This document shows, in pieces, positions 47,466 to 52,448 of a stretch of DNA of 64,000 bases. A program made the translations under genes and the position numbers. The first letter of the stretch is position 1. Each line of letters starts with the position of its first letter. Origin of the DNA: Hymenobacter duratus (lineage in GTDB: Bacteria; Bacteroidota; Bacteroidia; Cytophagales; Hymenobacteraceae); NCBI RefSeq assembly GCF_014698995.1, contig NZ_JACWZZ010000001.1, positions 434,001 through 498,000 on the forward strand, given 5' to 3'. Below the pieces are notes generated by a model. That model had not been told where the DNA came from. It did no database searches and saw only the letters and a list, made by a program, of their open reading frames with translations.

Positions 47466-50399
47466 ATGGTTGCAACTCTACTTCTGCCGCACAGCGCTCG
47501 GCCACTACTTAATCTGAAGTCAGGGCGCTACCGGGTGCTGGCCGGGCTGCTGCTGTGCGCTGTCCTGGGGCTAGTGGGCCGGCCGGCGCCGGCCGCAAGC
47601 CTGCCGGCTGCCGAGCAAAGCCCGCCCGGGCAAAGCGCGCTGGCCGAAGCACTAAACCCCGACGGGACGCTGCGCGCCGGTGTGCACGGCGCTTTCGATG
47701 CGCGGGCGCACCGCCTGTACATGGCGCCCGACGGGCAGCCGGTGTTTCGGGCGGCGGGGCCCGGCCAGGCTGCCGGTGCCGGCGACGAGCACTGGCAGGC
47801 GGGGTTCCAGGCGCCGGGCGCCAACTCCCGCATCAACGCGGTGCTGCAGGTAGGGGCCGATACCTACGTGGGAGGCGACTTCACCTCCGTGGGCGGCATA
47901 CCGGCCAACAGCGTGGCCCGCTGGAACGGCACCGAGTGGAACAGCCTGGGTACCGGCGCCGCCAACGGAGTAAACAATGCCGTCAATGCGCTGGCCATGG
48001 TGGGCACGACGCTGTACGTGGGCGGGCGCTTCAACCGGGCCGGCGGAACCACGGCCCGCAACGTGGCGCAGTGGAACGGCAGCAGCTGGAGCGCCGTGGG
48101 CGCCGGCCCCGACGCCGGTATGAACGCGGAGGTGCACGCCCTGGCCGTGTCGGGCGCCACGCTGTACGCCGGCGGCAACTTCACGACGGCCGGTGGGGCG
48201 CTGACGCCGCACGTGGCCCGGTGGGACGGCAGCAACTGGAGCGCCGTGGGCGGCGGCGTCAACAACAGCGTGCACGCGCTGGCCGTGCAGGGCAGCACGC
48301 TGTACGTGGGCGGCTACTTCACGCAGGCCGGCCCCACCCCGGCCGCGTACGTGGCGCAGTGGGACGGCACCGCCTGGCGCAGCCTGGGCACGGGCACCAC
48401 CGGCGCCGTGCTGGCGTTGGCACTCCGTGGCTCCAACCTGTTTGTGGGCGGGCTGTTCTGGCAGGCCGGGGGCATAGCGGCCCGCTACCTGGCACAGTGG
48501 ACCGGCAGCGGCTGGCGCAGCCTGGGCGCCGGGCCCGACAACGCCGTGTACGCCCTGGCCGCCACGCCTACTGCCTTGTACGTGGGCGGTGCCTTCGGGC
48601 AGGCGGGCACCACGGCCGCGCGCCACGTGGCGCAGTGGGACGGCGCCGCCTGGCTGCCGCTAAGCACCAGCCTCGGCCAAGGTACCAACGCCCCGGTGCG
48701 GGCCCTGGCCGCAGTGGGCGGAACACTGGTGACCGGCGGCGACTTCACGGCGGCCGCCGACGTGGCGGCTTCGTACGTGGCCCGCTGGCAAAACGCCGCC
48801 TGGCATTCGCTGGGCGGCGGCCTTGGCATCAACAGCGCGGCCGTGGTGGCCGTGGTGGCGGTGGCCGGCCCCGACGTGTACGTGGGGGGCCGGTTCAGCA
48901 CGGCAGGGGGCGTGGCGGCCAACAACGTGGCCCGCTGGAACGGCACCGCCTGGAGCAGCCTGGGCACTGGTTCCGCCAACGGCGTAGATGCCACGGTGCT
49001 GGCCCTGGCCGTGGCCGGCAACGACGTGTATGTGGGCGGCGACTTTATGCAGGCCGGCGGGCAGCCCGCCAGCCGCGTGGCCCGCTGGGACGGCACGGCG
49101 TGGCGCGCGCTGGGCACCGGCACCAACGGCGTGGTGAATGCGCTGTGCCTGCAGGGCACCACGCTGTACGCGGGCGGCTCGTTCAGCACCGCCGACGGGC
49201 AGCCGGCCTACTCCATTGCGCAATGGACCGGCCAAACCTGGCAGCCGCTGCTCATGAACGGCGACAACGGCGTGGCCGGGGAAGTCAGGTCGTTGGTGGT
49301 GCAGGGGAGCGTGGTGTATGCCGGCGGCAGCTTCTCGGTGCGGCCGCCCAACGTGGCGCTGGTGCAGTACGTGGCCCAGTGGGACGGCACCACCTGGGCC
49401 CCCGTGGGCAGCGGCCCCACCCCCGGCCTCAACAGCCGCGTGACGACCCTGACCGCAGCGGGCAACAAGCTCTACGCCGGCGGCCAGTTCACCACCGCCG
49501 ACGGCCGCCCGGCCAGGAACGTGGCCGTGTGTGACGGCGCCGCTTGGCAGGGCCTCGGCCCGGGCTTGCCCCTGGCCCCCAACAGCGGCGTCACGAGCAT
49601 TGCCGTGTCGGGCTCAAGCGTGTACGTGGGCGGTGACTTCTACGCTGCCAGCAGCCCGCCGCCCCAGGCCGCCAACTTCCTGGCCCGCTGGAACGGCCAG
49701 GCTTGGAGCGCGCTCGGCAACGGCCTCAACCAGAACGTGCTGGCCCTGGCCCTCAGCCCCGACGGCCTGCTCTACGCCGGCGGCAACTTCGAGGCGGTGT
49801 TCGACAGCAGCGTGCCACTTTCGCACTTCGGCATCTACCGCGACCCGCAGCTGGCCACGCTGCGCAGCTGGGCCTTTGTGCCGGGCAGCGGCAACACGCG
49901 CATTACGATCAGCGGCACCGGCCTGGCCGGGGCCACGGCCGTGAACTTCCCCACCGCCAACGGGCCGGTGGCCGTGCCCAACCTGACCGTGAATGCGGCC
50001 GGCACCGACGTGACCGGGGTGCCGGTGCCCGCGGGAGCTGTGGCTGGCCCGCTCACGCTGAGCGTGCCCGGCGGCGGCACCAACGCGCTGGCCTTCGCGC
50101 CGGGCACGCTCAGCGTGTCGCGCCCGGCCGCGCCCGGCGCGCTGCAGCTCTACCCCAACCCCGCGCACAGCTGGGTAGCCGTGCAGGTACCGGCGGGGGT
50201 GGTGGCGCTTCGTCCGGTGGCGACGGTGCTGGACGCGCAGGGGCGTGTGGTGGCGCGGCTGCCGCTGGCGCGGACGGCTACCGGCCGGGTAGTTCGGGTG
50301 TCGGTGGCGGGGCTGGCGCCGGGGCGCTACTGGCTGCAGGTGCAGGCAGAAGGGCAGCAGCCGGGGCAGCAGTTCGGGCAGGCGTTGGTGGTGGAGTAG
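47466..50399 (+). CDS. Large secreted repeat protein with T9SS sorting domain
   Basis: Cell-surface or secreted protein of 977 residues. After an N-terminal hydrophobic signal (LAGLLLCAVLGLVGRPAPAA), the core holds 14 copies of a unit of about 50 residues with the motif [YF][VA]GGxF and a paired RWNGxxW strand, for example YVGGDFTSVGGIPANSVARW. Such units are beta-propeller-like blades. Then comes an IPT/TIG-like stretch (ITISGTGLAGATAVNFPTAN) and a C-terminal type A T9SS sorting domain (LQLYPNPAHSWVAVQV ... GRYWLQVQ). Start ATG 47466; the frame is open 52 codons upstream into the ATP synthase terminator. Function unknown. Confidence 0.88.
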   Translation: MVATLLLPHSARPLLNLKSGRYRVLAGLLLCAVLGLVGRPAPAASLPAAEQSPPGQSALAEALNPDGTLRAGVHGAFDARAHRLYMAPDGQPVFRAAGPGQAAGAGDEHWQAGFQAPGANSRINAVLQVGADTYVGGDFTSVGGIPANSVARWNGTEWNSLGTGAANGVNNAVNALAMVGTTLYVGGRFNRAGGTTARNVAQWNGSSWSAVGAGPDAGMNAEVHALAVSGATLYAGGNFTTAGGALTPHVARWDGSNWSAVGGGVNNSVHALAVQGSTLYVGGYFTQAGPTPAAYVAQWDGTAWRSLGTGTTGAVLALALRGSNLFVGGLFWQAGGIAARYLAQWTGSGWRSLGAGPDNAVYALAATPTALYVGGAFGQAGTTAARHVAQWDGAAWLPLSTSLGQGTNAPVRALAAVGGTLVTGGDFTAAADVAASYVARWQNAAWHSLGGGLGINSAAVVAVVAVAGPDVYVGGRFSTAGGVAANNVARWNGTAWSSLGTGSANGVDATVLALAVAGNDVYVGGDFMQAGGQPASRVARWDGTAWRALGTGTNGVVNALCLQGTTLYAGGSFSTADGQPAYSIAQWTGQTWQPLLMNGDNGVAGEVRSLVVQGSVVYAGGSFSVRPPNVALVQYVAQWDGTTWAPVGSGPTPGLNSRVTTLTAAGNKLYAGGQFTTADGRPARNVAVCDGAAWQGLGPGLPLAPNSGVTSIAVSGSSVYVGGDFYAASSPPPQAANFLARWNGQAWSALGNGLNQNVLALALSPDGLLYAGGNFEAVFDSSVPLSHFGIYRDPQLATLRSWAFVPGSGNTRITISGTGLAGATAVNFPTANGPVAVPNLTVNAAGTDVTGVPVPAGAVAGPLTLSVPGGGTNALAFAPGTLSVSRPAAPGALQLYPNPAHSWVAVQVPAGVVALRPVATVLDAQGRVVARLPLARTATGRVVRVSVAGLAPGRYWLQVQAEGQQPGQQFGQALVVE

Positions 50400-50474: not shown

Positions 50475-51026
50475 ATGCTACAGCCCCGATACCTCTCGCC
50501 CGATACTGCTACGGCCGCGTTGCGCCGCCTCAAGCCCAGCCCCGACGAGCTGGCCGCCTTCCGAGGGCACCTAGCCGAGATGCTCAAGCACCTCGACCCC
50601 CACAAGATTGAGCGCCACGGCGAAACCCATATCCTCGACTTCCTGCGCCACGTGAGCAAGCCGGCGGAGGGCGGCACGCGCTACGGCAACGTGAAGGACA
50701 AGCGCGACCTGGTGCTGCACCTCGGCGACACCGCCGACTCGCCTGTGGGCGTGGTGCTGGAAGTGAAGGGACCCAAGAACCCCAAGGAGATGCTGGCCCC
50801 CGCCGCCCAGCGCGAGGGCGTGGCCCTGGCTTTGTGCCTGATGTAGGTCAACCGCCTGCTGTTTCTGAAGCTGCTGGATGGCCAGCTGGTGTGCTACCAC
50901 GACGCCGCCAAAGCCGCCGATGCCGCCGCCGACACCCAGGCCCTGGAAGCGCAGATTGATGCGCTGGTAGCCGCCCTCTACGGGGTGGCGCTGCCGGCCG
51001 CCCCGGCCCCCGCGCCGGTGGCCTGA
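50475..51026 (+). pseudogene. Deleted remnant of a DUF7149/Eco57I-type restriction-modification gene
   Basis: The first 123 codons (from LSPDTATAALRRLKPSPDE, then GNVKDKRDLVLHLGDTADS and VGVVLEVKGPKNPKEML) match the N-terminal domain (DUF7149-like) of large type IIG/Eco57I restriction-methyltransferases. An in-frame TAG at 50844-50846 follows. Beyond it, in the same frame, comes VNRLLFLKLLDGQLVCYHD, another piece of such proteins, and then LEAQIDALVAALYGVALP, typical of their extreme C-terminus. The whole catalytic and methylase middle is missing. It is best read as a decayed gene after large internal deletions and one nonsense change. Confidence 0.68.
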
Positions 51027-51251: not shown

Positions 51252-51283
51252 TTGACACCGAATAAGTCAAACACCTATATTTA
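51252..51283 (+). promoter_or_regulatory. Promoter-like element upstream of the heptad array
   Basis: TTGACA at 51252-51257 and TATATTTA at 51276-51283, 21 bases between TTG and TA. The A+T-rich sequence stands out from its G+C-rich flanks. A second -7-like TACCTTTA at 51346-51353 lies further down. Confidence 0.5.
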
Positions 51284-51466
51284 GTGCAGCCTCCTGGCAG
51301 GCAGGGCGGTAGCCGCGGGCTGCCCACCGCCGCCCGGCCCCCGATTACCTTTATTTCTATTGCCTGCGTGTCTGTATTCTGTTATGCCGGTCGGGCCCGT
51401 GGGGTACCGGCTGCCGCCGGGGCTGTGCCCCGCCCTCACCTGGTGCTGTCTGCGGCTTCGGCCGTT

Positions 51467-51757
51467 ATGCCACGCGTCCAATGCGTTGAACAGCGTCTTC
51501 AATGCATTGAACACGGCTTCCAACGCATTGAAGACGCTGTTCAACGCATTGAACGCTCCTTCCAACGCATTGAACGTGGCTTCCAACGCATTGAAGACGC
51601 TGTTCAATGCATTGAACGCTCCTTCCAACGCATTGAACACGGCTTCCAACGCATTGAACACGTTTTCCTAAACAGTGAAAACGCTGTCCAATGCCTGGAA
51701 ACACGCTGTACCCAACAGGGGCGGGCCGTACCGGAGCGCCGGGGGGCCGTCTGGTGA
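51467..51757 (+). CDS. Possible coiled-coil protein encoded by the 21-base array
   Basis: From ATG 51467 a 96-residue frame reads through the tandem array as heptads: VEQRLQCIEHGFQRIEDAVQ, then further copies of FQRIERx. Ile (d) and Phe/Val (a) recur with 4-3 spacing, a classic coiled coil. This frame also stays open across the decayed last two units (to 51757), whereas the neighbouring plus-strand frame stops at 51671. Promoter-like elements lie upstream on this strand. The minus strand also reads as heptads (FNALEAVFNALEG), so coding cannot be settled. No homologue recognised. Confidence 0.35.
   Translation: MPRVQCVEQRLQCIEHGFQRIEDAVQRIERSFQRIERGFQRIEDAVQCIERSFQRIEHGFQRIEHVFLNSENAVQCLETRCTQQGRAVPERRGAVW
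51483..51703. repeat. 21-base tandem array with 63-base higher-order repeat
   Basis: Nine clear units spaced exactly 21 bases apart carry ttgaa at 51486, 51507, 51528, 51549, 51570, 51591, 51612, 51633 and 51654; two decayed units follow at 51675 and 51696. Most share ccaacgcattgaa. Three unit types recur in order, giving a 63-base super-repeat: 51525-51547 and 51588-51610 match at 22 of 23 bases. The first unit (51483-51505) is the exact reverse complement of 51525-51547, so it can form a hairpin with it. No unique spacers, so this is not a CRISPR. Confidence 0.93.
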
Positions 51758-51827
51758 CGAAGAACGCAGGTGCGCCGGGGCCGAAGGGCCGTTTCTCTCT
51801 TATTCTACTCGTTACCGCATTTCAATT

Positions 51828-52448
51828 ATGGCAACCCGCCGACTGATTACCAATTTCGACAACATGTCCAAGATGGACATTGGCCCGCTGGCGCAGAACT
51901 GCCTGACCAACATGGCGGCCAACCCCCGCTACCCCGACGCCAAAGACCAGCTCAAGGCCTTACAGGACGCTCTGACGCCCTACCTGGCCGCCGCCAGCAT
52001 TCTGCACCCCACGCCCACCCAGACCGCCGAGCTGGCCCAGCTGCGCGCCACGCTCAACCAGAGCCTGAGCGCCGTGGCCCAGATGGCCAACACGCTCTAC
52101 CCCCAGGACGAGGCGGCGCTGCTCTCCACGGGCCTGGCCCTGAGCAAGGAGCGCGAGCGGCACACCACCCTGGACGCGCCCACCCGGTTTCAGCTCGTGG
52201 ATGGCCCGCAGCCGGGCACGCTCTGCGCCAAGGCCAAGCGCCCGGCCCACGCCGTGGCCCTGAAGTATGTGTACACCACCGACCAGAAGCTGCCCGACAA
52301 CCAGTGGCTGACGGTGGTGGTGCGCGACGGCGACGCGCTGCTCACGGCCTGCAAAACCGCCGACCGGGTGTACTGCAAAGTAGCCGCCGTGGGCGGTGAC
52401 ACCGACCAGCAGCCCTTCACCGAGGTGCTGAGCCGCCTGGTGCAGTAG
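51828..52448 (+). CDS. Conserved-looking hypothetical protein, Fn3-like C-terminus
   Basis: A 206-residue protein with no signal peptide. The N-terminal half is helical, with LTNMAANPRYPDAKDQLKAL recalling Bacteroidota proteins that share a 'aNPnfpdP' segment before a helical bundle. The C-terminal half looks like beta strands (GTLCAKAKRPAHAVALKYVY, NQWLTVVVRDG, VYCKVAAVGG), possibly an Fn3-type fold. Function unknown. The start ATG 51828 is preceded by an A+T-rich leader; an open extension to 51675 runs into the decayed array and is unlikely. A good terminator follows. Confidence 0.75.
   Translation: MATRRLITNFDNMSKMDIGPLAQNCLTNMAANPRYPDAKDQLKALQDALTPYLAAASILHPTPTQTAELAQLRATLNQSLSAVAQMANTLYPQDEAALLSTGLALSKERERHTTLDAPTRFQLVDGPQPGTLCAKAKRPAHAVALKYVYTTDQKLPDNQWLTVVVRDGDALLTACKTADRVYCKVAAVGGDTDQQPFTEVLSRLVQ

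Follow-up and report, generated by a model that had tools for sequence, protein, structure and literature searches.

Tandem arrays with a period of two helical turns precede the genes of two families of uncharacterised proteins in Hymenobacter, and for one of these families also in other Bacteroidia. In Hymenobacter duratus, such an array starts at position 51477 of the window (the whole stretch of 64,000 nucleotides that was analysed) and lies upstream of a gene for a 206-aa protein with a fibronectin-III (Fn3) fold. Between relatives, the sequence of the arrays changes beyond recognition while the 21-base spacing stays, which makes rows of docking sites likelier than a coiled-coil gene. With a probability of roughly 0.4, the array is a cis element acting at the DNA level, namely a row of putative protein-binding sites served by a locus-specific factor.

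Structure of the array in the window

The following features were located in the window:

51252..51284, plus strand: weak promoter-like pair TTGAC-N19-TATATTTAG, about 190 bp 5' of the array and deviating from the strict TAnnTTTG
51477..51700, no strand assigned: 21-bp array of eleven units, nine with an intact YCAAYGCRTTGRA core and two degenerate, with an internal 63-bp super-repeat
51479..51551, no strand assigned: inverted pair of 27 bp; either strand can form a long hairpin
51740..51791, plus strand: conserved leader element (GGTGRCGAAGAA...GGTGC...) between array and gene, from a 14-sequence alignment of Fn3-gene orthologues
51779..51790, plus strand: small hairpin GGCC-GAAG-GGCC, read by eye from 14 aligned loci
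51828..52448, plus strand: gene of the 206-aa protein (starting MATRRLITNF) with a helical N-terminal part and an Fn3 fold, accompanied by the array

A preliminary description of this region had reported a 21-base array with a 63-base super-repeat and a unit exactly inverse to a later one, and all three are confirmed. Unit-by-unit reading yields eleven units of 21 bp between 51477 and about 51700, the last two being degenerate. TRF reports periods of 21 (51477-51668; 9.1 copies, 78% matches) and 63 (51500-51662; 2.6 copies, 93% matches), and the 27 bp of 51479-51505 recur as an exact reverse complement at 51525-51551. The ends of the interval, 51467-51476 and about 51708-51757, are non-repeat sequence. 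The palindromic core YCAAYGCRTTGRA, likewise pointed out at that time, occurs 18 times over both strands, i.e., at nine places, all within the array, which is far above the expectation from 100 dinucleotide shuffles (mean 0.87, maximum 4). In line with the presumed ability of the transcript to fold, the array folds better than its shuffles on both strands (z -9.75 plus, -13.6 minus). A comparison of 2 kb with Rfam gave 16 matches, all under the gathering scores, with miRNA models falling on the hairpin. The promoter-like pair was judged against the Bacteroidota consensus.

At the level of DNA similarity, the array was matched in one of 58 relatives, weakly. A single palindrome of the YCAAYGCRTTGRA type was found in 14 of the 120 genomes searched; the 13 besides H. 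duratus have one palindrome site each, identity at lag 21 in these loci is at most 0.58 in any 84-bp stretch, and the two with the highest values (L013 and L014) contain no chain of cores. The genome carrying the window (4.67 Mb) holds a second array with the same core at about G000:C3:436.1-436.35 kb.

Elsewhere in the window, a 138-bp tandem repeat (48211-48654, 3.2 copies) lies within an ORF of 1029 aa that repeats the motif YVGG and may encode a secreted repeat protein. An ORF matching DUF7149 (50475-50846, plus strand) stops well before the full length of the profile, and a longer copy of this type is located 5' of the array in another genome (G002, L042:3846-4478).

The Fn3 gene and its leader

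The 206-aa protein has no family match in Pfam, NCBIfam, PADLOC or PHROGs. Its structure was modelled with a pLDDT of 89 as a helical N-terminal part and an Fn3 fold, and no known DNA-binding fold was recognised in the model. The protein is near neutral (family median pI 6.9), the helical family described below having a median of 9.4. The gene was found in 21 of 120 Hymenobacter genomes by protein search, and the class search gave matches in 44 of 395 genomes, which belong to 20 of the 196 genera covered; one homologue (L058) is truncated by an in-frame stop. Carriage of the gene by phages or plasmids was rejected, tblastn giving zero matches in either of the collections searched.

In the leader, the stem of the GGCC hairpin (51779..51790) is conserved and its loop varies in most of the 14 aligned loci. 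At 51751-51830, a frame NTG-GTG-RCG-AAG-AA..., off the register of the gene, overlaps the start codon and reads like KKPGASRPAG in several orthologues. From its sequence, this frame may possibly be a short leader peptide, a reading that is confounded by the GGCC hairpin.

Arrays accompany two gene families

The loci of the Fn3 gene were all rated alike, by a score for periods close to 21 or 42 over the 900 bp upstream. A near-21-bp array precedes the Fn3 gene at 21 of 24 Hymenobacter loci (the misses being L058, L099 and L108) and at 18 of 27 loci of other Bacteroidia, where the remaining nine fall under the threshold, several only just. The same score applied downstream identified arrays at 0 of 26 and 1 of 30 loci, respectively; random windows of the H. 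duratus genome reached it in 20 of 1991 cases (about 1%) and shuffled upstream regions in 0 of 510. Within Hymenobacter, these arrays share the 21-bp period and their unit sequences are unrelated, and the upstream G+C content of the loci outside the genus ranges from 0.30 to 0.70. The outside loci comprise those of the class search, obtained for 28 of the 42 extra-genus genomes with a match, as well as L101 and L102 from an order search, L102 being a weak homologue scored as having an array. Loci with less than 400 bp upstream (L060, L069, L062, L122, L125, L135), partial matches (L063-L066, L072, L073) and a match without a locus (G061:C19) were left out.

For a second view, 1.264 Mb of the H. 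duratus genome were scanned for tandem arrays with a period of 9-60 and a score above a set limit. After removal of two period-9 rows representing runs of N, 18 arrays were counted, of which 12 have a period of 21 or 42, one of 41 and five others; some are non-intergenic, and several unrelated unit sequences coexist within this genome. Four arrays of 21 or 41 bp are located directly 5' of genes for uncharacterised, apparently helical proteins. Others are found before glyA (a 21-bp array, L141:1857-1995), before a gene of glycosidase type, within open frames or, as in the case of a 42-bp array with large inverted repeats (L160:5439-5632), between two convergent genes and thus upstream of neither. 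About 5 kb of N (L168:17500 to L169:2499, about G000:C1:697.5-702.5 kb) are either masked sequence or a gap in the assembly.

Two of the helical proteins, picked from beside other arrays of H. duratus, were searched across 120 Hymenobacter genomes, and 51 of 54 distinct loci feature a near-21-bp array within 800 bp upstream (54 of 57 before three duplicate loci were removed), the downstream control giving 0 of 51. All 30 loci of the first query were scored, and for the second query L240, L245 and L258, whose matches begin inside the protein, were left out together with locus-less matches. As both queries match some common loci, the helical genes constitute one superfamily. Helical proteins have no known-family match above the cut-off, and a structure search with a model (pLDDT 75) returned nothing at E<=0.001. 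Homology between the Fn3 and helical families is unsupported (hhalign 1.6%).

Over 70 array loci, the median start is at -352 and the median end at -129 relative to the start codon. The best period is 21 in 39 loci, 42 in 28, 41 in two and 20 in one, so that 67 of 70 show near-integral helical spacing with periods of 21 or 42. Off-register periods are 22/44 bp (L127, L136, which belong to the more distant homologues), 41 bp (L120, L202, L205) and 20 bp (L238). Dyad symmetry reaches p<=0.05 in just 20 of 78 arrays and is strongest in Fn3-linked ones, including that of the window; palindromes were accordingly rejected as a general feature of the arrays. The protein-binding array initially proposed around the palindrome is the best-supported of the early readings, but it is the two-turn spacing, rather than the palindrome, that is general.

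Conservation rhythm and the coding question

In the arrays, lags of 1-2 between conserved columns are over-represented and lags of 5-7 are avoided. Spectral analysis of the conserved columns of 77 arrays gives clear positive mean z values at two periods only, 21 bp (+0.63) and 10.5 bp (+0.82), with comparable values in the 61 arrays without shared 15-mers (+0.66 and +0.78). B-DNA has 10.5 bp per turn, and such a rhythm is the trace expected from contact on one face of the helix, which supports binding. It is no proof of it, because most single arrays are non-significant (10.5-bp peak with p<=0.05 in 19 of 77) and the units are related by copying. An AT rhythm is absent from the base composition at 21 and 10.5 bp, and bending by AT tracts was rejected on this basis.

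The heptads that the preliminary description had seen on both strands exist mechanically, with long ORFs on either strand of the window array; its plus frames contain 10 stops, a single TAA in a degenerate unit, and none, respectively. Their meaning as an evolving coiled-coil gene finds no support in the homologous arrays. The open plus frame varies between gene-linked arrays and none is open in all, the L101 array has stops in all six frames, and periods of 20, 22, 41 and 44 bp occur. The substitution pattern by frame had been proposed as a check; column variation in 77 arrays lacks a codon-length periodicity (mean z at 3 bp -0.35), one array reaching p<=0.05. Coding heptads were rejected for these stops, periods and the missing codon rhythm, and a protein-coding repeat is a most improbable explanation of the gene-linked arrays, even though genuine in-frame linker arrays are found elsewhere. 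This exception concerns urea-transporter/Peptidase M23 genes, 6 of 23 of which carry a coding 21/42-bp array as a linker (23 of 24 genes were read, G060 being left out). The linker arrays differ between species, and four of the six show no likeness to other arrays at a score of at least 45 among the best 25 pairs. At L279:2121-4622 and L280:3141-5594, Pfam domains identify a Urea transporter fused to Peptidase M23 through the heptad linker.

Turnover and second sites

Between pairs of the same family, arrays are similar at score 45 in 55 of 119 cases above 70% protein identity, in 2 of 115 at 50-70% and in 0 of 459 below 50%, where period and place are nonetheless kept. As these two persist, old arrays carry young sequences. 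The turnover proceeds by units: a single complete 21-bp unit separates L051 from L053 and L056, and in the pair L199/L200 the array has diverged more than the start of the gene, the last three units of L200 being alike where L199 has three different ones.

Eight segments of Fn3 arrays searched in 11 genomes revealed off-locus arrays in four of them, two as in-frame linkers of a urea-transporter/Peptidase M23 gene, the other two lying upstream of an RND-pump-like and a GH28-like gene, respectively (the latter two names being read from sequence, not from a family search). In a post hoc observation, each is closest to the Fn3 array of its own genome (local alignment 116, 100, 69, 71); by BLAST, the second site of G073 matched segments of other genomes, not its own. 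A general likeness of arrays within a genome is unsupported, same-genome pairs being no more alike than cross-genome pairs (Mann-Whitney p 0.89; score of at least 45 in 4 of 131 vs 30 of 2410 pairs, p 0.09). The unit of the array beside glyA in H. duratus resembles helical-gene arrays of other Hymenobacter (L230, L231, L234), not those of its own genome.

A proposed row of binding sites and its rivals

A row of protein sites fits the two-turn period, the regular place, the free sequence, the homogenisation, the helix-face rhythm and the absent codon rhythm. Acting in cis upstream of the gene of a small uncharacterised protein, the array would offer about ten binding sites, one per two helical turns, so that bound proteins would be aligned on one face of the DNA and might touch one another. 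Protein binding, the nature of the binder and a regulatory effect are what we infer from this pattern. The coexistence of several arrays with unrelated units in one genome requires a factor that is locus-specific. The simplest candidate, as a guess, is the protein encoded by the gene that follows the array, which would imply autoregulation with occasional second target arrays; alternatively, a separate co-evolving regulator may bind. Since whole copies are gained, lost and spread, which homogenises the units, a site can drift fast while the spacing is kept. In a more specific and doubtful version, many small-protein genes of Bacteroidota would each own a private operator array, a two-turn row of sites read by the gene's own product; protein and array would co-evolve fast, leaving sites unrelated between paralogues and the geometry fixed, and a site would sometimes be planted at second loci. 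Several points weigh against binding sites in general, namely the modest rhythm signal, the near-neutral window protein without a recognised DNA-binding fold, 21-bp arrays found apart from such genes or within coding linkers, a promoter-like motif lying before the array in some loci and after it in one subfamily, the 9 of 27 loci of other Bacteroidia without an array by threshold, and same-genome pairs that are not generally more alike.

The strongest rival is copying on the scale of the helix with locus-dependent tolerance. Here, replication or repair in Bacteroidota would make two-turn tandem copies as a mutational by-product, which are kept where insertions are tolerated, i.e., upstream of fast-evolving genes and in protein linkers. 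The predominance of helical periods among the tandem arrays of the genome (12 of 18 with 21 or 42, one with 41), some of them in open frames and one before glyA, speaks for it, as do the in-frame linkers in 6 of 23 urea-transporter/M23 genes and the gain and homogenisation of whole units. It suits the linkers, but not a near-universal linkage to genes: alone, it leaves the 51 of 54 and 21 of 24 loci with arrays, against about 1% of random windows, unexplained, and it accounts neither for the regular position nor for the conserved columns at 10.5 bp. It is a possible, though doubtful, explanation. Unlikely, in comparison, is a structured leader RNA, in which the 5' leader of the gene's transcript, or else an antisense RNA, would fold into repeated hairpins. 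The folding excess behind this early suggestion is real on average (36 arrays, mean z -5.1 plus and -4.9 minus, hence about -5) and strong in the window array, but the two strands share it equally (the minus strand does relatively better in 17 of 36), and several arrays have almost none, e.g., L090, L106 and L059. Covariation exceeds expectation slightly (3613 paired cells vs 3530, of 7260). The -7 consensus of Bacteroidota promoters is TAnnTTTG. This motif precedes the array in nine loci, as a leader RNA would have it, but in ten other loci, all of one helical subfamily, it lies downstream of the array at -34 to -39, ahead of the start codon. The order of array and promoter is therefore not constant, and as most loci have the motif in neither place, these promoter positions are suggestive only.

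About as unlikely is an element sensitive to supercoiling, whose phased palindromes would form cruciforms that tune a promoter nearby, with no need for a sequence-specific binder. The 27-bp inverse copy and nine palindromic cores of the window array, together with the 20 arrays with dyad symmetry, would suit such an element; dyad symmetry is, however, non-significant in 58 of 78 arrays, and the 10.5-bp conservation rhythm is not predicted by it. The resemblance of off-locus arrays to Fn3-gene arrays could also reflect a mobile element, a MITE-like minisatellite carrying the array to new sites. This is decidedly improbable, as inverted ends are absent (best flank match 7.5 vs 6.9 in shuffles) and repeats are unrelated between copies in one genome.

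Relation to known systems and significance

Plasmid iterons and parC-type centromere arrays consist of tandem sites of about 10-22 bp with near helical phasing, adjoin the gene of their binding protein and vary in sequence between systems. The present arrays resemble them as tandem sites (binding being putative) with near-integral helical spacing beside a gene. Unlike in those systems, many chromosomal copies occur per genome and the linked proteins are helical or consist of helices plus Fn3; no replication-initiator, partition or ParR-type gene was found beside the arrays, and neither the window protein nor the helical proteins match a known family.

BrickBuilt of Porphyromonas gingivalis is an intergenic minisatellite/MITE with a 23-nt unit and possible transcriptional roles (PMC4596501). 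It has in common with the present arrays its occurrence in Bacteroidota, the tandem arrangement near genes and a similar unit length; in contrast to its one shared sequence with inverted-repeat ends, units here are unrelated and arrays follow gene families (PMC4596501). Terminal inverted repeats of this type were not detected, 0 of 72 array loci having a flank match score of at least 15, nor do copies within the H. duratus genome share a sequence in the manner of a MITE, units being unrelated at several loci, with the exception of the C3 array carrying the window core. Likewise, TAACTGA direct repeats were described in Beggiatoaceae, Cyanobacteria and some Bacteroidetes, are intergenic and upstream of ORFs as the present arrays are, and were proposed as binding sites of a regulator (PMC4679880). 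They are one fixed heptamer and show no pattern in the genes that follow, whereas spacing is fixed and sequence free in the present arrays, which are tied to gene families (PMC4679880).

In the open-access literature, no description of arrays with fixed period, free sequence and linkage to gene families was found. Repeats are usually classed by sequence, and a class that keeps period and place alone is missed by sequence searches. Should the arrays be private binding sites, they would represent a natural series of co-evolving protein-DNA pairs and provide a first role for gene families so far without one. A mutational origin of the 21-bp period, on the other hand, would point to an unrecognised mechanism of helix-scaled copying which also builds protein linkers.
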